Made by a program: the position numbers and the translations under genes. Below the pieces are notes generated by a model, which was not told the DNA's origin, did no database searches, and saw only the letters and a list, made by a program, of their open reading frames with translations. This document shows positions 21,302 to 40,489 of a DNA stretch of 64,000 bases, piece after piece. Position 1 is the stretch's first letter, and every line of letters begins with the position of its first letter. Source of the stretch: Hyphococcus luteus (lineage in GTDB: Bacteria; Pseudomonadota; Alphaproteobacteria; Caulobacterales; Parvularculaceae); assembly GCF_002943565.1 (NCBI RefSeq), contig NZ_PJCH01000011.1, positions 186,001 to 250,000 of the forward strand. Direction: 5' to 3'.

Positions 21302-23014
21302 ATGCGCAAGACGTCGTCCGCCGGGGCCTCCGCCTCGCCTTCCATCATCGATCAGCACCGGGACGCCATTTTTTATCTGGTTTTGGCGGTCTTCTTCGCG
21401 ATGGGCGTGCTGCAGAACACGCTTCCCATCCTGTTCGCCCCGGGGCTCACGGGCGCGCGCATCGCCGGCTATGCGACCCTGGCTTGTTTTGCGGCGATAT
21501 TCGCCTTCTTTCATTTTACGAAAAAGCTTGAAGCCGCCGCCATCGCGCTCTTAACGGCGACGTATCTCGGGCTTGGCTGGGCCGCGCTCAACCAGGGCGG
21601 CGGGCCGGCGACGGCGCTGATTTACATCCCTTTCCTGCCGATGGTCGCCACGGTGCTGCTGGGACGGCGCGCCGGGATTATTTCAGCCGCAATCTCAATC
21701 ATCATGATGACGGTTTACACGGCCGCCAATGTGAACGGCTACACAACGCCCACGCCTCACACGCCGCACCAGATGAGTCTGCTCTACGCTTCCGGCGCGA
21801 TTCTTTTGACGATCGGCGTCGCCATGCACGCCGTCATCTACGAACATCTCGTCAAAAACGCCATGAACGCCGCCCAAAAGGCGCAACGCGAATTGCAGGA
21901 GAAAGCGGACGAGCTCGCTGAGAACCGTGAATTCCTGTCGACCGTCATGGACTCGATCAATGAGGGCATCGTCGCCGCCGATGCAAACGGCAAGCTTTCG
22001 GTGTTCAACAAACAGGCGCGCGCCATGCACGGTCTTGACGCCATGCCGCTCGCCTCATCGGCCTGGCCGCAGACCTACAGCCTTTACGATGCGGACGGCG
22101 AAACGCTCCTCGCCGAAAAAGACGTGCCGTTGTTCCGCGCCCTGAACGGCGAAAAGGTTTCCGGCCAGCATCTCGCCATTGTCGCGCAAGACAAGCCGAA
22201 ACGGTTTTTCTGTTCGAACGCCGCGCCCATGAGGAACGCCAAAGGCGAGCGCATCGGCGCCGTGGCGACCATGCGCGACATCACCCGCGAGCGCGTGCAG
22301 GAAGAAAAAATCAGCCGGCAGAACCGCGAAATCGACCAGTTCGCCCGCGTCGCCTCGGTCGACCTTCAAGAGCCCTTAAAACGCATCGTCGCCACGGCCG
22401 ACACGCTTCGCGACGCGCCGGAAGTGAAAGACTCGGGCCGCATGCGCAACGAACTCGCCTCCATCTCCTCGGCGGCGAAAAGAATGGGCGCGCTGATCAA
22501 GGACGTTCTCTACATGTCGCGCCTTCCCATCGGCGAGATGTCGCTGCAGCCCGTCGCCGCCCGCGAGTGCATCGAGGCGGCGATCGATCTTCTGGACATC
22601 AACGAGGCCAACTGCCGGCTCGATTTCCGCTTCGCCGGTTCGCCCGAGATCGTCGCCGATCCCCACAGTCTGACGCTCGTCTTCAAACATCTCATTGAAA
22701 ACGCATGGAGACACGCCCCGGAAGGCGTGAAGCCCCATGTGGAGTTCACCTGGATCGTTGAAGACGGCGCCGCGGTGCTGGGCGTCAAGGACAACGGCGC
22801 GGGGCTGACGAAAGAAGAGGCCGAGCGGGTGTTCCTGCCGCTGGAGCGGGTGCGCACGAGCGAGAATGAGGAAGGCTCAGGCCTCGGTCTGGCGATCTGC
22901 CGCAAATCCCTGACGCGCATGGGCGGGGAGTTCTGGCTCGAAACCGAACCCGGCGAAGGCTGCCATTTCCGCCTGCGCCTGCCGCTCGCCGAAGCAAAAG
23001 CCATGGCCTCGTAG
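21302..23014 (+). CDS. Membrane PAS histidine kinase lacking the phospho-acceptor His
   Basis: 570 residues. A membrane domain of about six helices (20-185) is followed by a coiled linker, a PAS domain (about 210-335), a dimerisation helix pair and an ATPase domain. The phosphorylation motif of this class reads F-x-x-x-A-S-H-D-L-Q-E-P-L; here it is FARVASVDLQEPLKRI, with Val353 (codon GTC at 22358) where His should be. The ATP-binding boxes look intact: N box HLIENAWRH, DNGAGL, GSGLGLAICRK. As written it cannot autophosphorylate at the usual site. It could be a pseudokinase that modulates another kinase, or it could use another residue. No response regulator is adjacent. Confidence 0.88.
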   Translation: MRKTSSAGASASPSIIDQHRDAIFYLVLAVFFAMGVLQNTLPILFAPGLTGARIAGYATLACFAAIFAFFHFTKKLEAAAIALLTATYLGLGWAALNQGGGPATALIYIPFLPMVATVLLGRRAGIISAAISIIMMTVYTAANVNGYTTPTPHTPHQMSLLYASGAILLTIGVAMHAVIYEHLVKNAMNAAQKAQRELQEKADELAENREFLSTVMDSINEGIVAADANGKLSVFNKQARAMHGLDAMPLASSAWPQTYSLYDADGETLLAEKDVPLFRALNGEKVSGQHLAIVAQDKPKRFFCSNAAPMRNAKGERIGAVATMRDITRERVQEEKISRQNREIDQFARVASVDLQEPLKRIVATADTLRDAPEVKDSGRMRNELASISSAAKRMGALIKDVLYMSRLPIGEMSLQPVAARECIEAAIDLLDINEANCRLDFRFAGSPEIVADPHSLTLVFKHLIENAWRHAPEGVKPHVEFTWIVEDGAAVLGVKDNGAGLTKEEAERVFLPLERVRTSENEEGSGLGLAICRKSLTRMGGEFWLETEPGEGCHFRLRLPLAEAKAMAS

Positions 23015-32539: not shown

Positions 32540-33241
32540 CTATTCCTCGCCGATATGTTTGAACGTGTCCGGCGCGAGAAGGACGATGACGCCGCCTTCC
32601 TGACGGATGAGGCCTTCCGACTCCCAGAGCTTTAATTGGCGGTTGACGTTCTCGCGCATCATCCCCGCATGGGCGCCGAGATTGCCCTGGGAAAGCTTCA
32701 TGTCGATATGGAGCGCGCCGTCGCCGTCCCGGTGGCCGTAGGTTTCGCCGAGGCGCAACAGCGCGCGCGCAAGCCGCGGCGCCGCCGGCAGGGTGGCGAT
32801 GTCTTCCAGGAGGAAATTGGTGTGGCGGATGCGCTGGCAGAGCGCGGCGATGATCTGCAGCGCGACGCCGTGATTGCGCTCGAGAAAATCGAGCACGTCG
32901 CGCCGGTAAAGCCTTAACGCGCGGGTTTCCTGAAGCGCGCTCGCAGAGGCCGACCGGGCCCCGCCGTCGAAAACGCCCATTTCGCCCAGGACCTCGTTCT
33001 CGCCCATGAAGGCGAGCACGGTCTCCTTGCCGGCGTCGGAATAGCTCGAGATCTTCACCCGGCCGGAAAGGATGATGTAAAGGCAGTCGCTGTCGTCGCC
33101 TTGCGCGAAAATCTGCTTGCGCCCGGCGAAGACGACAGGATGCGCGGACTCAAGCAGGCCCTGCAGCTTGTCGTCCGACAAAGCCTCGAAAAAGGGATGC
33201 CGTTTCAGCTCCCAGATCAATCCGGCGTCGGCGCCTTTCAT
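32540..33241 (-). CDS. CRP-like cyclic-nucleotide-responsive regulator
   Basis: 233 residues. The cyclic-nucleotide domain (about 15-130) has the phosphate-binding cassette GEMGVFDGGARSAS (86-99), with E87, R96 and S97 matching the cAMP-binding Glu, Arg and Ser of CRP. No Cys cluster of the FNR kind is present at the N-terminus. The helix-turn-helix (184-205) contains MRENVNRQL; R196, E197 and R201 align with the Arg-Glu...Arg that read TGTGA in E. coli CRP (SRETVGRIL). Two perfect TGTGA-N6-TCACA boxes lie upstream at 33764 and 34088. An adenylate cyclase gene lies further upstream on the same strand. Binding to these boxes is predicted, not shown. Confidence 0.85.
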   Translation of the reverse strand: MKGADAGLIWELKRHPFFEALSDDKLQGLLESAHPVVFAGRKQIFAQGDDSDCLYIILSGRVKISSYSDAGKETVLAFMGENEVLGEMGVFDGGARSASASALQETRALRLYRRDVLDFLERNHGVALQIIAALCQRIRHTNFLLEDIATLPAAPRLARALLRLGETYGHRDGDGALHIDMKLSQGNLGAHAGMMRENVNRQLKLWESEGLIRQEGGVIVLLAPDTFKHIGEE

Positions 33242-33322: not shown

Positions 33323-33354
33323 GCGGCGCGCCCCTCCCCCAAGGGACGCGCCGC
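33323..33354 (-). terminator. Terminator between small gene 1 and the CRP-like gene
   Basis: GCGGCGCG-CCCC pairs with GGG-CGCGCCGC around a short loop, with one mismatch. Read leftward it is followed by the T-rich CTTTCTTTATT. It would separate the small-gene transcript from the regulator gene that starts at 33241. Confidence 0.6.
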
Positions 33355-33597
33355 TCTCAAGAGCCCGTCTCATTAGCCCGCAGCGCCGCGCGGCGCGGGA
33401 TGGACAAATGTTCGCCAGCAGCAATCCCGATGCCCTAAAGGCTCTTAATTCTTAAAGAATCAGAGCCGAAGCTGTATCGGGACGCGGAAAGGACCATCTG
33501 GTTTTCCCTCTTTGCATGACGTTGCCGGACCTATCGATCAGGCTCTGGGCGAGGCCGGGACGGGGCGATTGTCCTGACCTCTGGGGCTCTGTTTGTT
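33355..33597. other. Long 3' region of small gene 1 with hairpin at 33440-33467
   Basis: Between the small gene stop and the terminator lie 240 bases with no supported frame. GGCTCT (33440-33445) pairs with AGAGCC (33462-33467), and the loop contains the palindrome ATTCTTAAAGAAT-like segment, giving a near-continuous stem. Read leftward it is followed by TTTA. It could be a first terminator, or part of a structured 3' untranslated RNA. Confidence 0.4.
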
Positions 33598-33684
33598 TCA
33601 GCGGCTCACCGTGAACAGGCTGGAAACGCCGAGGGCCGCATTGAGGCCGATGAAACCGATGATGATGATTTCGATGACGCCCAT
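33598..33684 (-). CDS. 28-residue hydrophobic small protein, copy 1
   Basis: The frame ATG to TGA encodes 28 residues: MGVIEIIIIGFIGLNAALGV, then a short polar end (SSLFTVSR). CAGGAGAG lies just before the ATG, a strong ribosome site. The peptide is one hydrophobic segment with an acidic residue at position 5 and a basic C-terminus, so it probably inserts in the inner membrane. A paralogue at 33921-34007 differs at only five or so residues, with most changes conservative, which argues for selection on the protein. It lies 80 bases below a perfect CRP-type box. I do not recognise a family; a small regulatory membrane protein or type I toxin-like peptide are both possible. Confidence 0.7.
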   Translation of the reverse strand: MGVIEIIIIGFIGLNAALGVSSLFTVSR

Positions 33685-33763
33685 GATGCTCTCCTGTTTC
33701 CCTTTGTTCCGGTCTCTCCCGACCGCCGATGGTTAAAAGATAAAAGCGCCCTGGATTTTCCGC

Positions 33764-33779
33764 TGTGATGGCGGTCACA
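33764..33779 (-). promoter_or_regulatory. CRP-type box upstream of small gene 1
   Basis: TGTGATGGCGGTCACA is a perfect TGTGA-N6-TCACA palindrome. Read leftward, a TATCTT element (33737-33742) lies with its centre 32 bases from the box centre, the spacing of a class II CRP-activated promoter (box at about -41.5). The gene starts 80 bases below the box. Confidence 0.75.
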
Positions 33780-33841
33780 GGCGCCGCCGGTTTTCGTTAA
33801 TTCCTGTAGTCTCCTGTTTTTCCTAGACTTTCCGCCCGCAT

Positions 33842-33873
33842 GCGGCGCGCCCTTCCCCCGATGGGCGCGCCGC
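33842..33873 (-). terminator. Hairpin downstream of small gene 2
   Basis: GCGGCGCGCCC and GGGCGCGCCGC form a perfect 11-bp stem with a 10-base loop. It lies 48 bases past the stop of small gene 2. No T-run follows on the leftward strand, so it may be a weak terminator or an RNA-stabilising hairpin. The same GCGGCGCG stem sequence is reused at 33323. Confidence 0.5.
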
Positions 33874-33920
33874 GTCTCCCCCTGCTTGGGCGGCGCAACG
33901 CTTCTCGCTTGGCGTTGCTA

Positions 33921-34007
33921 TCAGCGGCGGACCGTGACGAGGCTGGAAAGGCCGAGGGCCGCGTTGAGGCCGATGAAACCGATGATGATGATTTCGATGA
34001 CGCCCAT
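33921..34007 (-). CDS. 28-residue hydrophobic small protein, copy 2
   Basis: A second 28-codon gene. Its first 19 residues (MGVIEIIIIGFIGLNAALG) are identical to copy 1, ending LSSLVTVRR. GCAGGAGAGATCAAA precedes the ATG. The unit of box, TATCCT element, a 5' leader that can fold (GGTCGGGA...GACC) and coding region is duplicated as a whole, about 323 bases apart. Third-position changes between copies (for example AAT/AAC for Asn15) while the N-terminal protein stays the same support a real coding sequence. The predicted location is the inner membrane. Function is unknown; too short for most annotation pipelines. Confidence 0.7.
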   Translation of the reverse strand: MGVIEIIIIGFIGLNAALGLSSLVTVRR

Positions 34008-34087
34008 TTTGATCTCTCCTGCTTTCCGTCTTCCGGTCTTTCCCGACCGCCGATGATTGAAGGATAGGAGGAGCCCCGATTTATCGC

Positions 34088-34103
34088 TGTGATGGGCGTC
34101 ACA
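34088..34103 (-). promoter_or_regulatory. CRP-type box upstream of small gene 2
   Basis: TGTGATGGGCGTCACA is a second perfect TGTGA-N6-TCACA palindrome, 81 bases above the ATG at 34007. The TATCCT element (34061-34066) again has its centre 32 bases from the box centre, as in copy 1. The box lies 61 bases beyond the cyclase stop. Confidence 0.75.
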
Positions 34104-34164: not shown

Positions 34165-36408
34165 TTAGCTTTGGCCTTGGTGACGCATGGCCTCGGCCTT
34201 GGCGACAAAAAAGGCGATGGCGTCGTCGAACCCGTAAGTCTCGCCCTGCCCGCAGGCCCCGAAATGTTCCAGCGCTCCATAGGCGTCGCCTTCTTCAAGG
34301 GCGAGGATTCCCGCTTCAAAGGCGCGGCGAAACTGCTGGAAAGCGGGACTTGCGGCGAGGGCTTCGTCGCCCGCCAGGGCGAAGATCACCGTCGGGTCGG
34401 AGCGCCCCTTCACCGTAAAGGCGCCAAGCGGCACGGCGGCGAAATCGGGAATGCGCTGGCGCATCTCGGCTGAAATGATGATCGGCACGCCATATTGCTT
34501 GGTGAGCGATTCCAGCCGCGAGGTGAGGTTCACCATATCGCCGAGCATGGAATATTCGAGCTTGTCTTCGGAGCCGAAATTGCCGACCCGCGCTTCGTCG
34601 ACATGAAGGCCGATGCCGATGCGGATCTCCGGCACGGGCAGCTCCTTCGTCGACCGCCATCCGTCATTCAGCTTGTCGAGCGCTTTCATCATGTCGAGGG
34701 CGGCGCGCGCCGCTTCCGCCGGATGGTCGGCCACGTCGATCGGCGCGTTCCACATGGCGGCGAGGCCGTCGCCCATATATTTGTCGACGAGCCCCTTATG
34801 GACGACGACGATACGCGTCATCTGGGTGAAATACTGGTTGAGCATCGCCGTCACCTGTTGCGGCGTCAGCTGCTCCGAAATCGAGGTGAAGCCGCGAATG
34901 TCGGAAAAGAAGGCGGTGATCTCGCGCTGCTCGCCTTCGAGCTTCAACAGCGTCGGGTCGCGTTCAAGACGCTCCAGGAGAAGCGGCGACAGGAACTTGC
35001 CGAAGGCGCCGCGGATAAAGCGCCGCGCCAATTGCTCCTGCTGGAACATCACCACGAAAGCCGGCACGAACGCCGCCGTGACCACTAGGCCCGGCGTCAC
35101 CGGATCGATCAAAAGGCGCGAAGACTGAAAGGCGTAAAAGGCGCCGCCGAAAAGCGCGGCGGTGAGGACCGCCCAGATGCCGAAGCCCGCCGCCGCGGAA
35201 AGGCGCGGCAGGAAAAGCAGGATCATGAGCGAGACGATCGCCGCAAGGCCGATTTCGATGGGGCGCATCAGATCCCAGGCGCGGAACAGCGTCTTGCCCG
35301 CCAGCGCCTGTTCGATGACTTCCGCATGGATGTGCACGCCCGGACGCTCGTCGCCAAGCGGCGTGACAAGGACGTCGCGCAACCCCTCCGCCGAGGCGCC
35401 GATCATGACGATCCTGCCCTTGACCGCATCGGCGATATCGGACGGATCTCCTTCGAGAATATCGACGACCGACAATCGTCTTTTCGCAACGCTGTCGGGC
35501 CGCGAATAATGCACCCAGAGCTGGCCGTCTTCAGTGGTCGGAAAATGCAAGCGGCACATCACCACTTCGGACACCGACTGGCGCGCAATGCCGGTGACAT
35601 GGGCGCGGCACTGGCCGTTCTGCGCCGCCTTCACGAAAGCCGGCGTCGCATATTGCGGATCGAGTTTCGGCGCGGCGACGCGGATCGCCTCAAGCGCAAG
35701 GCTCGGATAGACTTCCGTCCCGTCGCAGGCGAGCGCGATCAGGGGCACGCTCCGGACAATCGCGTCCTCGGCGAGGCCGGCGCGCGCGAAGCCCTCGCCG
35801 CTCGCCGCTTCGCGGAACATCTTCAGCGGCGGCACCACCTGGCGAAAGCTCGGCGCCACGCGCGCAAGATCGCTCGCCGGCATGCCCTGCACGCGGGAGG
35901 CGCCAAGCGCCGGCGGACAGCCCCCGTCGGAAGCGCCGGCGCGCGCCGTCAGATGCAGAACCGTCGGCGCCGATGCGAGCGCCGCCGCAAACCGTCGGTC
36001 GTGATCGACTGCGGCGAGATCGGAAGCGCCAAGCTCGGCGACAATGGGCGCAAGCACCGGCGAATCGAGCCAGCTCTTGGCGACATTGCCGGGGCTTGTG
36101 CGGTCAGGCTCGGCCAGAATGACGTCGAAAACGATGGACGCCGCGCCCGCCTCATTCAGCTTGTCGATGATGGTTGCGAAACGGTGGCGCGGCCACGGCC
36201 ACTGGCCGTATTTTTCAAGCGCCGCGTCGTCGATTTCGACGACGCGCACCGGATCGGCGTCGTAATCGCGCGGAGCCAGGCGCTGGAACTGGTCGAACAC
36301 GCGGTCGCGGGCGATGTTGACGAGCGCCGGGTCGTTGAAAACCAGCGCGAGCGCCAGGACCGCGCCGACCAAACCGGCGATGCGAGGCCCGAGGTGATGG
36401 CGCCCCAT
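34165..36408 (-). CDS. CHASE2-domain class III adenylate cyclase
   Basis: 747 residues. An N-terminal helix, an extracytoplasmic CHASE2 sensor domain (about 35-330), three membrane helices (about 345-430), then a class III cyclase domain (about 470-650). Catalytic residues are present: metal Asp503 (FFSDIRGFTS) and Asp547 (DKYMGDG), and transition-state Asn627 and Arg631 (GDMVNLTSRLE). Lys543 and Asp624 at the purine-selecting positions indicate ATP rather than GTP, so it should make cAMP. It is the last gene of a leftward operon (TPR/barrel, FecR, cyclase; 13-base gap to FecR). It lies upstream of the twin CRP boxes and CRP-like regulator. The CHASE2 ligand is unknown. Confidence 0.92.
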   Translation of the reverse strand: MGRHHLGPRIAGLVGAVLALALVFNDPALVNIARDRVFDQFQRLAPRDYDADPVRVVEIDDAALEKYGQWPWPRHRFATIIDKLNEAGAASIVFDVILAEPDRTSPGNVAKSWLDSPVLAPIVAELGASDLAAVDHDRRFAAALASAPTVLHLTARAGASDGGCPPALGASRVQGMPASDLARVAPSFRQVVPPLKMFREAASGEGFARAGLAEDAIVRSVPLIALACDGTEVYPSLALEAIRVAAPKLDPQYATPAFVKAAQNGQCRAHVTGIARQSVSEVVMCRLHFPTTEDGQLWVHYSRPDSVAKRRLSVVDILEGDPSDIADAVKGRIVMIGASAEGLRDVLVTPLGDERPGVHIHAEVIEQALAGKTLFRAWDLMRPIEIGLAAIVSLMILLFLPRLSAAAGFGIWAVLTAALFGGAFYAFQSSRLLIDPVTPGLVVTAAFVPAFVVMFQQEQLARRFIRGAFGKFLSPLLLERLERDPTLLKLEGEQREITAFFSDIRGFTSISEQLTPQQVTAMLNQYFTQMTRIVVVHKGLVDKYMGDGLAAMWNAPIDVADHPAEAARAALDMMKALDKLNDGWRSTKELPVPEIRIGIGLHVDEARVGNFGSEDKLEYSMLGDMVNLTSRLESLTKQYGVPIIISAEMRQRIPDFAAVPLGAFTVKGRSDPTVIFALAGDEALAASPAFQQFRRAFEAGILALEEGDAYGALEHFGACGQGETYGFDDAIAFFVAKAEAMRHQGQS

Positions 36409-36421
36409 GGGGTCCGCTCCC

Positions 36422-38839
36422 CTAAAGCGGCGGCGGCGTCGCGCCGGGAACGCGCGGCATCAGTTCGATCTGGCCGGTCCCCTCGCCGCCGGCGCCGTCA
36501 TTGAAGTTGAAATAGATGTCGGCGTTTTCGCCGGCCCCGCCATTGCCGTCGCGGATCAGGAACAGGGCGTTTTCGATATTCGTCCCGCTGAAATCATCCG
36601 CGCCGAAACCGAACACCCCCTGGCCGCCGGCCGCGTCGTCAAAACTGACCGCGCTTAAGTTTTCGAAAATATCGAGATTGAAGTTGTTGAACGTATCGTC
36701 GATGGCGACCGACACATAGGATTCGCCGCCGCCCACCGTGCGGTTGGCGAAATTGATGTCGATCTCGGCCTCCGCATCGCCGGAGGAAAACGTCCCGTTC
36801 GCCCGCTCGATCGCTGCATAGCCGGCAAAGCCGCGCCCCGCCGCCGTGCCGTCGAAATGGTACGTGCCGGCGCCGAGCGAACCCGCCAGCGCCTCAAGTT
36901 CGGCGATGGTCGAAAGCGGCGGAACGCCGGAATCCTGAAAGGCACCCACTTCCGTATACAGATGATTTCCGGCGTCGTCGGACACGATCGCCGCAATATC
37001 GGCCTCGAGCCCGTCGCCGTCGCCGATGATCGCCTGACCTTTCAGCGCGTTCGGATCGGAACTAATCGAGGCCAGCGTATGGAAGGCGAGCCCGAAAAGA
37101 CCGCTGTCGAATGACGCCGCCTGGTCGAGGGCGACATATTGCACCGTGTTCTCGCCGCCGATCGCCGCGTCCGCCGCCGCGGAGACAGCGAGGAAGGACG
37201 AGCCCCCGCCGACCGTGCGATTGTCGAAATCGATTTCAAGCTGGACATAAGAAACGCCGGTCAGGGGCGTCGGCGTTCCCAGGGTCGAAATGACATTGGT
37301 CGAAAAACCCGTCACCAAAGTCGTGCCGGCGCCGCTCAACCCGTCAAGTTCGGTTATCGACAGGGCGAAGCCGAGCGGCGTCGTGAAATAGGCGAGGTCC
37401 CCCTCGCCCGGCGTAAACATCAGGTCGTCGGCGCCGCCTGTAAGCGCAATATTGTTGTTCTGGGCGTCGACGTCCGAATAGTCGATGCTGACATCCGCCG
37501 TCACCGTGTCGTTTTCCCCCTGACGGATGGTGAGGTTGTATGTCGGCGTCATATAGACGGCGAGATCGTTGTCGCCGGCGGAGAACGGAACGCCGGCGCT
37601 GTCGAACAGGGCGTTCAGATAACCGTCTTCAAAAGCGGCGCCGCCGCCGGTGAAGCCGGAGAAATTGCGCTGGGTGAGATCGTCCGGATCCGTCACCGTC
37701 CCGTCAAAGCGCGCGAAACTCGCCAGCGCTTCCGGCGCGATGGTGCGCGAGGCCCAGTCCACATGGATCTGGAAGATCACGACGCCGTCTTCGATGCTCG
37801 TCCCATTGTCGATCTGCGCCGGCGCGACGGCGAAAAGCACCCCGTCCGGATTGTTGGTCTGCGCATCCGCAAAATCGTCGAGAACATCGAGCGGCAGGAT
37901 ATCGCCCACGGGGATCGTCACAGGCGGCGGTGGCGGGGGCGGCGGCGGCGGCGGCGCATCGTCATCGCCCACCGAAGGCTGCTCCGGTTTGTTTTCGGTA
38001 TCCTCGTCGTTCTTTTCGTTCTTGTTTTCGGCGTATCGCCGTTCGTCGTCGCCTTCCTGCGCGCCCTGGCCCGAATTGTTCAGAGGATCGCCCGCATAGT
38101 CGAACGCAGAGCCCTCGCTTTCGGGAATGACCGGCACGAAGGCCTCGTAAATGCGCCTCAACAACTCGTCATCGGCGCGGAACGGTTCGGAAACGCCGTC
38201 GGGGCCGATGCGCACCGCGAAGCCGGAGCGTTTCAGCACCGCTTCAATCGCTTCGCGATTGCCGTCGGTCCAGAATTCAACAAGGCCTTTCGGCGCCAGA
38301 CCGCTATTGTCGCGCACCGGCCCTTCGAGCAGCGCGTAAACATACCCGTCGAGCTCCACCAGAATGACATTGGTGCCGCGCACGCCCATGGTGACGCCGC
38401 TCTCCTGGATCTCGACTTCCGTCGAGCCCGGTTCGGTGTCGCGCCCGGAGGAGAACCGGAACCCGCCGCGGAAGAAATTGATCACCCGCCGGCGGCCCGC
38501 GCCTTGCGCGTCGAAAAATTCGTTGATCGCGGACTCGCTGTTGGGCGAGAAGGTGTAGGTGCTCCAGTCGCACAGCTTTAATTGCAGATGCGAGGCGTCG
38601 CCGGTGCGCACCGTGTCCCCGGTAAACATGTCCGCGCCGCTGGACGGGCGGAAAGCGTTTTCGCGGTTAAGGCGCTCAACGTCGACGGCGGGGCCGACGA
38701 CGGCGGTGGCGTTGCCGGCCTTCGGATCGTTGGTGTCGCGGTCGAAACATTCCGCGGCCTCTGCGCCAAACGGCGCGAGCGCGAGAACAGCGGCGGATGC
38801 GGCGGCTTTCAGCGTCAGCATTGAAATGCGTTTCGTCAT
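36422..38839 (-). CDS. FecR-domain secreted protein with repeated C-terminal units
   Basis: 805 residues. A signal peptide (to about AEA, residue 28) is followed by a FecR-type domain (about 60-200: GDTVRTGDASHLQLKLCD, GVRGTNVILVELDG), an acidic linker with a run of prolines (near 295), then about 480 residues containing a repeated motif: DFDNRTVGGGSSFLAVS, NFANRTVGGGESYVSVA and the weaker DWASRTIAPEAL. FecR domains sit in the periplasm and often work with sensor proteins. It lies between a TPR/barrel gene and the CHASE2 cyclase, with 9- and 13-base gaps, so it may feed an envelope signal to the CHASE2 domain. The repeats look like beta-sandwich units. Confidence 0.82.
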   Translation of the reverse strand: MTKRISMLTLKAAASAAVLALAPFGAEAAECFDRDTNDPKAGNATAVVGPAVDVERLNRENAFRPSSGADMFTGDTVRTGDASHLQLKLCDWSTYTFSPNSESAINEFFDAQGAGRRRVINFFRGGFRFSSGRDTEPGSTEVEIQESGVTMGVRGTNVILVELDGYVYALLEGPVRDNSGLAPKGLVEFWTDGNREAIEAVLKRSGFAVRIGPDGVSEPFRADDELLRRIYEAFVPVIPESEGSAFDYAGDPLNNSGQGAQEGDDERRYAENKNEKNDEDTENKPEQPSVGDDDAPPPPPPPPPPPVTIPVGDILPLDVLDDFADAQTNNPDGVLFAVAPAQIDNGTSIEDGVVIFQIHVDWASRTIAPEALASFARFDGTVTDPDDLTQRNFSGFTGGGAAFEDGYLNALFDSAGVPFSAGDNDLAVYMTPTYNLTIRQGENDTVTADVSIDYSDVDAQNNNIALTGGADDLMFTPGEGDLAYFTTPLGFALSITELDGLSGAGTTLVTGFSTNVISTLGTPTPLTGVSYVQLEIDFDNRTVGGGSSFLAVSAAADAAIGGENTVQYVALDQAASFDSGLFGLAFHTLASISSDPNALKGQAIIGDGDGLEADIAAIVSDDAGNHLYTEVGAFQDSGVPPLSTIAELEALAGSLGAGTYHFDGTAAGRGFAGYAAIERANGTFSSGDAEAEIDINFANRTVGGGESYVSVAIDDTFNNFNLDIFENLSAVSFDDAAGGQGVFGFGADDFSGTNIENALFLIRDGNGGAGENADIYFNFNDGAGGEGTGQIELMPRVPGATPPPL

Positions 38840-38848
38840 GATCGCCCC

Positions 38849-40276
38849 CTAAAACGCAATGCGTTTCGACAGCAAAAGCGCGGCCTTGTGCGCCTTGTAG
38901 TCGAAGTTCAAAATATTGGAGTCGACGGTCTCATATTCATACTGAGCGATGAGATTGATGTCCTTCACTCCTTCCGGCGCTTTCGGGAAGAAGAAGGAGA
39001 ACGGCACGCCCAGCGTCGCGCGCGCGCGATAAAGCCATTCGTCCCGCACTGTGGGGCCGATGAACGGGTCATTGCCGTCATATTCTGATTTTTCCGCCCA
39101 CAGACCAATCAGCGAAAAGGCGCCGCGCCCTAAAAGCCAGCTATGCTGAACATTAGCGCCATAGCGGTCATAAGACTCGAAAGCGACTTCGCCGTCCTTT
39201 ATCATGTAGAGGCCTTCGACCTGGACGGCCTGGGTCGGGCTGAACCGCCATTTGGTTCCGCCGCGCAGGCCGATGCGCTTGCCCGAGCGCAAATAAGCAG
39301 CCCCGAAATTCGACGTCGCGCGGAATTTTTCATCCTCAACCCGCACCGCGCCGTAAGACGTGATTTTCGGGTTCCAGCGATAGGCGGTCCGCACTTCGCC
39401 GCCCCAGCTTGAGAGGTAATCGTCGCCGCCGAGCCAGTAGAAACTCCCGCGCGCCGTCGGCGTGAAGGACCATTTGCCCGAATAGAACGTGCCGCCGGCC
39501 GCAACGGTCGCGGCGTCGAGATCGAGCGTGTCGACCTCGACCTTGTCGGAGCGGTAGTAACCGACATCCGCATGCAGCATATGGCCTTCCTGCGATCCGA
39601 GATCGTGCAGGAGCCTTCCTTGCGCGGAGAAGACATAGGCCGCATCGCCGTTGCGTTGATTGGCCGGCACGATCGCCTCAAGATAGGCCGTGGGATTGAC
39701 CGGATCGTTCGGGATCGCGAATTGCAGCATGCCGCTAGACGGCGCCTGATTGCGGTTTGAATCGTAATCGACGCCGGCGGTGACGGTTAATGAGCCGCGC
39801 GTCCTGCGCTGCTCGTATTTGATGCGGTTCAAATAAGCTTCGGCTTCGGCGGCGAGCGCCGAGGGCAGCAAGCCGCTTTCCAGCGCCAGCTCCAGCTCAT
39901 AGCGCGCGCGGTCGTAAAGCCCGAGCCGGTAAAGCACGAACCCGTATAAGACGCGCACGTCATAAAGATCCGGGTTTATAAGAAGGATCCGTTCGAGCGT
40001 CGCGCCGGCTTCCTTAAGATCGCCCGCCGCGATCTGCTGGCGCGCATAAGCGATGTTAAGCCGGATATCTTCCGGCGCTCTCAGAATTTGCTCGAAGGGG
40101 ATCGCCGCCTCGCGCGCCGTATCGCTTTCTTCCGCACGCCGCTGGACGTCCATGAGCCCCTGATCGGCCGCCTCGCGCGCCGATTCCTCCGGCTCCTGCG
40201 CCAGCGCGGGTCCAAGCAGGCAAAGCGTCCCGGCGACCAGCGCTCCGGATGCGCGACATGCGGACCATTTCACCAT
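38849..40276 (-). CDS. TPR protein with C-terminal outer-membrane beta-barrel
   Basis: 475 residues. Signal peptide MVKWSACRASGALVAGTLCL ending ALAQ. TPR-like helices (about 60-150: LNIAYARQQIAAGDLKEAGA, VRVLYGFVLYRLGLYDRARY) precede a beta-barrel (about 170-475) with alternating aromatic strands, ending ALLLSKRIAF, a C-terminal Phe. The layout matches surface lipoprotein assembly modifier (DUF560/SLAM-like) barrels, though I cannot confirm this by eye. The ATG at 40276 follows GGGGGATTTC and opens the signal peptide; the longer frame to 40489 is not credible. It is the first gene of the FecR-cyclase operon. Confidence 0.78.
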   Translation of the reverse strand: MVKWSACRASGALVAGTLCLLGPALAQEPEESAREAADQGLMDVQRRAEESDTAREAAIPFEQILRAPEDIRLNIAYARQQIAAGDLKEAGATLERILLINPDLYDVRVLYGFVLYRLGLYDRARYELELALESGLLPSALAAEAEAYLNRIKYEQRRTRGSLTVTAGVDYDSNRNQAPSSGMLQFAIPNDPVNPTAYLEAIVPANQRNGDAAYVFSAQGRLLHDLGSQEGHMLHADVGYYRSDKVEVDTLDLDAATVAAGGTFYSGKWSFTPTARGSFYWLGGDDYLSSWGGEVRTAYRWNPKITSYGAVRVEDEKFRATSNFGAAYLRSGKRIGLRGGTKWRFSPTQAVQVEGLYMIKDGEVAFESYDRYGANVQHSWLLGRGAFSLIGLWAEKSEYDGNDPFIGPTVRDEWLYRARATLGVPFSFFFPKAPEGVKDINLIAQYEYETVDSNILNFDYKAHKAALLLSKRIAF

Positions 40277-40489
40277 GAAATCCCCCTGATGAGCGTGCGC
40301 CCGCATGTTGCAGCGCACAGCAATTCTCTCCCAAATCCCCGTCATGCAAACAGCGCGCCTTTTATCTTCATAGAGACGCTGCAGGCCGTTCTTAATCGCA
40401 ACTATGCGCCGCGCTCCTTTGCGCCGCAACCGTTTTCTATTCGGCTGGACGCTGAAATTATTGTAAAAACTGGCCGTAAGACGCCGCAT

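Follow-up and report, generated by a model that had tools for sequence, protein, structure and literature searches.

Here we describe two tandem, self-contained units on the minus strand of a 64-kb window (the whole stretch of DNA analysed) from a Parvularculaceae genome. Each comprises a CRP box, a -10 hexamer, a leader, a ribosome site and a 28-codon open reading frame (ORF). Both sit between the gene for a CHASE2 adenylate cyclase and that for a CRP-family regulator, downstream of genes for a TPR protein and a FecR-domain protein. The features are as follows, in the order in which the minus strand is read.

38849..40489, minus strand: TPR protein with a C-terminal DUF2860-like region, 546 aa; conserved member of the locus
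36422..38839, minus strand: FecR-domain protein, 805 aa; conserved member of the locus
34165..36408, minus strand: CHASE2 receptor-type class III adenylate cyclase, 747 aa (CHASE2 3.6e-52, Guanylate_cyc 1.7e-19)
34088..34103, minus strand: CRP box of unit 1 (cyclase side), TGTGATGGGCGTCACA, minus-strand reading TGTGACGCCCATCACA; perfect match, kept in relatives
34061..34066, minus strand: -10 hexamer of unit 1, TATCCT; predicted +1 is the A at 34054, which places the box at -41.5
33921..34007, minus strand: ORF of unit 1, 28 aa, MGVIEIIIIGFIGLNAALGLSSLVTVRR; homologs, purifying selection
33842..33873, minus strand: G+C-rich inverted repeat behind unit 1, the counterpart of terminator-like repeats behind other units; this copy lacks a T run
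33764..33779, minus strand: CRP box of unit 2 (CRP side), TGTGATGGCGGTCACA, minus-strand reading TGTGACCGCCATCACA; perfect match, kept in relatives
33737..33742, minus strand: -10 hexamer of unit 2, TATCTT; predicted +1 is the A at 33730, which places the box at -41.5
33598..33684, minus strand: ORF of unit 2, 28 aa, MGVIEIIIIGFIGLNAALGVSSLFTVSR; homologs, purifying selection
33323..33354, minus strand: terminator-like inverted repeat, then CTTTCTTTATT, behind unit 2; displaced by a 187-base insertion
32540..33241, minus strand: CRP/FNR-family regulator, 233 aa, with cNMP_binding and HTH_Crp_2 domains

The 747-aa protein combines a CHASE2 domain with a class III cyclase domain and thus qualifies as a receptor adenylate cyclase; its best matches among solved structures are adenylate cyclases. 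Judged by its residues, the neighbouring regulator keeps those with which E. coli CRP reads TGTGA and most of those that hold cAMP. In an alignment with the E. coli CRP reference sequence (checked against the PDB), the recognition helix reads RENVNR versus RETVGR in E. coli, with R180, E181 and R185 (E. coli numbering) all present, and RENVNR is found in 10 of 10 close orthologs. At the cAMP site, G71, E72, R82, S83 and T127 of E. coli CRP are kept (GE..RS plus T127), and S128 is replaced by N.

The two unit boxes are the only perfect TGTGA-N6-TCACA sites in the window, which bears out an earlier note on this DNA that had described tandem 28-residue genes behind perfect CRP boxes with class II spacing. 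Three window sites have at most one mismatch, against 0.41 expected from shuffles, and the whole 4.9-Mb genome holds six perfect boxes, two of them those of the units, and no match to a reversed control pattern. The 32 bases that the note had counted between the centres of the box and of the -10-like element are found in both window units. Class II CRP-dependent promoters of E. coli have TGTGA-N6-TCACA centred at -41.5 and a -10 only. The units share this box and centring, with a recognisable -10; the start sites are predicted and the spacing is computed from them, the host belongs to a different branch of the phylum, and activation is here a prediction. What the earlier note missed is the context that makes the units of interest, namely the CHASE2 cyclase and CRP genes that flank them.

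The leaders of units 1 and 2 each fold alone (-8.9 and -8.6 kcal/mol), as the earlier note had proposed, and a search for a common RNA structure among the related leaders found none. The first dozen bases of the predicted transcripts are conserved (ATCGGCGGTCGG). In the alignment of homologous units, the inverted repeat behind the ORF is followed in most cases by a T run; because the cyclase-proximal repeat of the window has none, termination behind unit 1 is unsure.

Both ORFs encode MGVIEIIIIGFIGLNAALG[L/V]SSL[V/F]TV[R/S]R, a nearly identical hydrophobic peptide, as had been noticed at first reading. The mean hydropathy over 19 residues reaches 2.2, which fits one membrane span. Between the two ORFs, six codons differ, three silently and three not (dN 0.05, dS 0.15). 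The earlier note had taken the silent changes between the copies as a sign of selection on the protein; at three silent against three non-silent codons, this pair alone is weak evidence, and it is the relatives that supply the case. Among the ORFs of 17 units, the median dN/dS is 0.20 and differences fall on codon positions 1, 2 and 3 at 29, 18 and 54%, a pattern indicating that the peptide is under purifying selection. G2, E5, F11 and N15 are invariant in an alignment of 24 family members. The peptide had no profile match in Pfam or NCBIfam, and the peptide profile had none at E 1e-4 in 384 other alphaproteobacterial genomes.

We searched the family Parvularculaceae with the peptide, the cyclase and the CRP, and inspected named contigs, including those of Parvularcula sp. 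NAT21 and Parvularculaceae UBA4496; the matches assign the genome of the window to this family. An ortholog of the cyclase (69-100% identity) was found in 10 of the genomes searched, and all 10 carry one to three peptide units at the same place. The gene order TPR-FecR-cyclase-peptide units-CRP is likewise common to all 10, as far as the contigs reach. Together these genomes hold 19 units, counting one at a contig end, with the locus of one genome split over two contigs; the units are related by descent and therefore do not amount to 19 independent observations. The box is a perfect TGTGA-N6-TCACA in 18 of the 19 and has a single mismatch in the other. TAnnnT stands exactly 21 bases after the box in 18 of 19 units, preserving the offset of the window pair (background frequency in the window, 0.003), and the predicted +1, with the box at -41.5 as in class II promoters, is a purine in 19 of 19. 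A Shine-Dalgarno-like GGAGA precedes most of the ORFs, in line with the ribosome site reported earlier. Lack of frame conservation in relatives had been named beforehand as one outcome that would refute the proposal. The proposal withstands this test: in the 10 genomes, frame, box, spacing and ribosome site are all kept at this position. The order of the genes, the box and its spacing, the ORF, the purifying selection and the co-occurrence of these parts in different species are thus direct observations. A tree of the units had too little support to date the duplication.

Perfect boxes also occur beyond the locus. Genomes with the cyclase ortholog contain 47, versus 3 for the reversed control, and 18 of the 47 belong to peptide units; in nine members of the genus that lack this cyclase, the count is 9 versus 3 for the control. 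The sites outside peptide units often show the same geometry of box and -10 and recur across species, which supports a working class II regulon. One example is a short, periplasmic-looking protein, mostly starting MTN, that stands behind a class II CRP-type promoter in at least six genomes (L187, L170, L174, L177, L181, L201, L206). Its gene is often divergent from a symporter-like gene, and the two such proteins compared with Pfam gave no match.

The peptide family extends to two further subfamilies. A diverged peptide (M[LV]E..LI.FI...) is encoded in seven members of the genus that lack this cyclase. Its gene is no more than about 10 kb away from that of a 46%-identical CRP, with the gene of another CHASE2 cyclase nearby; in one of these genomes, it directly follows the operon of that cyclase, which includes an M48 peptidase gene. 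Six of the seven genomes have TGTGC-N6-TCACA followed after 21 bases by TAnnnT, and the box of the seventh is two bases shorter. The same class II geometry thus indicates that CRP controls members of the peptide family at more than one locus. The third subfamily is encoded behind a small gene with a LAAVAGG-like motif, without such a box, and also occurs where this cyclase is missing. Because these boxless paralogs stand alone in genomes without the cyclase, the original role of the family need not have involved it. Upstream of boxless paralogs (L044, L045, L046, L047, L003) there is a TGTGANCG-like element followed by CGTGAC, forming a direct repeat with a period of about 10 bases; a -10-like hexamer follows at a distance of 33 bases, and another regulator may act here.

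Other genera (L142:719-990; L147:4740-5142 and downstream; G030, G045) have perfect boxes close to the CRP gene ahead of unrelated small membrane proteins, one of 55 aa and two, in tandem, of 60 and 61 aa. Pmp3-family small membrane proteins stand behind perfect CRP boxes in G045 (L202, L204). In the genome of the window, a Pmp3 gene follows a 29-aa ORF with a weak likeness to the peptide (L004, G000:C1:95378). We consider this ORF probably not a member of the family: the invariant E5/N15 pattern is missing, and the Pmp3 gene comes next.

We conclude that the two tandem genes very probably represent a family of 28-residue, CRP-driven, single-span inner-membrane peptides. In the mechanism that we propose, a signal at the CHASE2 domain, perhaps with the help of the FecR and TPR proteins, would raise cAMP. 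The CRP encoded next door, bound to cAMP, would then occupy the box at -41.5 and recruit polymerase to the TAnnnT -10 with no need of a -35. Each unit would be transcribed from its own class II promoter into a short mRNA and translated into a peptide spanning the inner membrane once, which would make the peptide an output of the TPR-FecR-CHASE2 cyclase-CRP module. Dependence on cAMP and CRP, translation and membrane insertion are each predicted from sequence features. The peptide is probably an output or a feedback part of the cAMP signalling system.

What such a peptide would do is a separate matter. It could alter the inner membrane (its stability, its potential or a transporter) when cAMP is high without acting on the cyclase, a reading to which we give somewhat under an even chance. 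The boxes ahead of the unrelated small membrane proteins and of the Pmp3-family proteins suggest that this CRP has more widely been given control of small proteins of the membrane or envelope; a broader membrane role is favoured by the boxless paralogs at other places and by the boxed proteins that other genera have near the CRP gene. The constant position of the units between cyclase and CRP would, on this account, be mere convenience. That position is what recommends feedback, in which the peptide would bind the CHASE2 cyclase at its membrane part, or else bind the FecR protein, and turn its partner down or up, as MgrB does PhoQ (PMC2789325). Wherever the sensor occurs, the genome encodes next to it a single-span peptide that is predicted to be under control of the regulon, and peptide subfamilies recur near two different CHASE2-cyclase/CRP pairs, which speaks for a link with the module. 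We hold feedback only tentatively, given that boxless paralogs occur in genomes without this cyclase and that ten genomes are too few for a test of co-variation. In its furthest form, feedback would make a lineage-specific family of micropeptides the main CRP output of the CHASE2-cyclase module, acting back on the membrane part of the cyclase as a cAMP counterpart of MgrB, and in related genera unrelated small membrane proteins would take up the corresponding position next to the CRP gene; this fuller picture is speculative and we think it unlikely to hold as a whole.

Readings outside the membrane-peptide framework fare less well. The short, discrete predicted transcripts, with their terminator-like 3' ends and conserved first dozen bases, could suggest a regulatory or dual-function RNA: it would act by base-pairing with mRNAs, and its ORF would come second, after the model of VcdRP or AzuCR. 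CRP-controlled dual-function RNAs are known (PMC8672173). Conservation is nevertheless densest in the ORF and tracks codon positions, the units diverge between stop codon and terminator, and the leaders have no common structure, all of which makes such an RNA improbable. Length, hydrophobicity and tandem duplication would suit a type I toxin of a toxin-antitoxin pair, but in the 17-unit alignment, judged by eye, no conservation is apparent of a promoter-like stretch on the other strand or of any antisense region outside ORF and promoter. The synteny with a signalling module is stable across species, unlike that of typical type I modules, and E5 and N15, which lie within the span, are maintained by purifying selection, so that we regard a toxin as very improbable. 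An Ile-rich ORF and a terminator between unit 2 and the CRP gene might recall a leader peptide or attenuator of that gene; with one to three unit copies, each followed by its own terminator-like repeat, with Ile swapped for Leu and Val in relatives and with paralogs that stand alone, this can be set aside almost entirely.

Returning to the CRP-driven membrane peptide, the closest known setting is the Clr-CyaD1-FecR locus of Sinorhizobium meliloti (clr SMc02175, cyaD1 SMc02176, smc02177, smc02178; PMC5498481), in which a CRP-like gene likewise lies beside a CHASE2 receptor cyclase gene, with a FecR gene and targets of unknown function nearby. The likeness is one of gene content: the Parvularculaceae locus has the CRP-like gene, the CHASE2 cyclase, FecR and predicted targets of the regulator. 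A TPR protein is another Clr target in S. meliloti (PMC5498481). The Clr box is TGTTN8AACA-like, whereas that described here is TGTGA-N6-TCACA, and SMc02178, the target encoded nearby, carries a signal peptide and is periplasmic, in contrast to a tandem 28-residue membrane peptide. MgrB of the PhoQ/PhoP system (PMC2789325) is similarly a small peptide of the inner membrane, induced by the regulator of the system to which it belongs (induction is predicted for the present peptide), but it is longer, at 47 residues, and its target is a sensor kinase; the likeness drawn here is one of predicted role. VcdRP, with the 29-aa VcdP, and AzuCR (PMC8672173) also place a very short ORF on a short CRP-controlled transcript. 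These are repressed by CRP and act partly by base-pairing, whereas the spacing found here predicts class II activation; VcdP binds citrate synthase (PMC8672173), whereas our peptide is membrane-like. Since gene content is as in Clr-CyaD1-FecR while box and peptide differ, and since the RNAs of the CRP-linked short ORFs VcdP and AzuC are CRP-repressed, we rate the units as a new micropeptide family and a regulatory variant within a known type of circuit.

CHASE2-cyclase/CRP signalling thus gains a micropeptide family that is absent from Pfam and NCBIfam. In alphaproteobacteria, little is known of the signal and the outputs of this type of circuit, and the units offer exact candidate promoters that could be used as cAMP reporters. 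To our knowledge, there is no earlier example of a membrane peptide that tunes a bacterial receptor adenylate cyclase; the present peptide, if it acts on the cyclase, would be the first.

Three further features of this genome are recorded here. A third CRP-type box in the window, with one mismatch, lies at 21730-21745 (TGTGAACGGCTACACA). Another perfect box in the genome (G000:C1:325403) is probably a chance occurrence, as it falls inside a long ORF resembling a TonB-dependent receptor. The 187-base insertion (33360-33546), which ends AGAGCC...GGCTCT and splits unit 2 from its terminator-like repeat, is absent in the closest relative; elsewhere in the genome it has one full-length copy (73% identity) and three partial copies, and it looks like a short mobile repeat.
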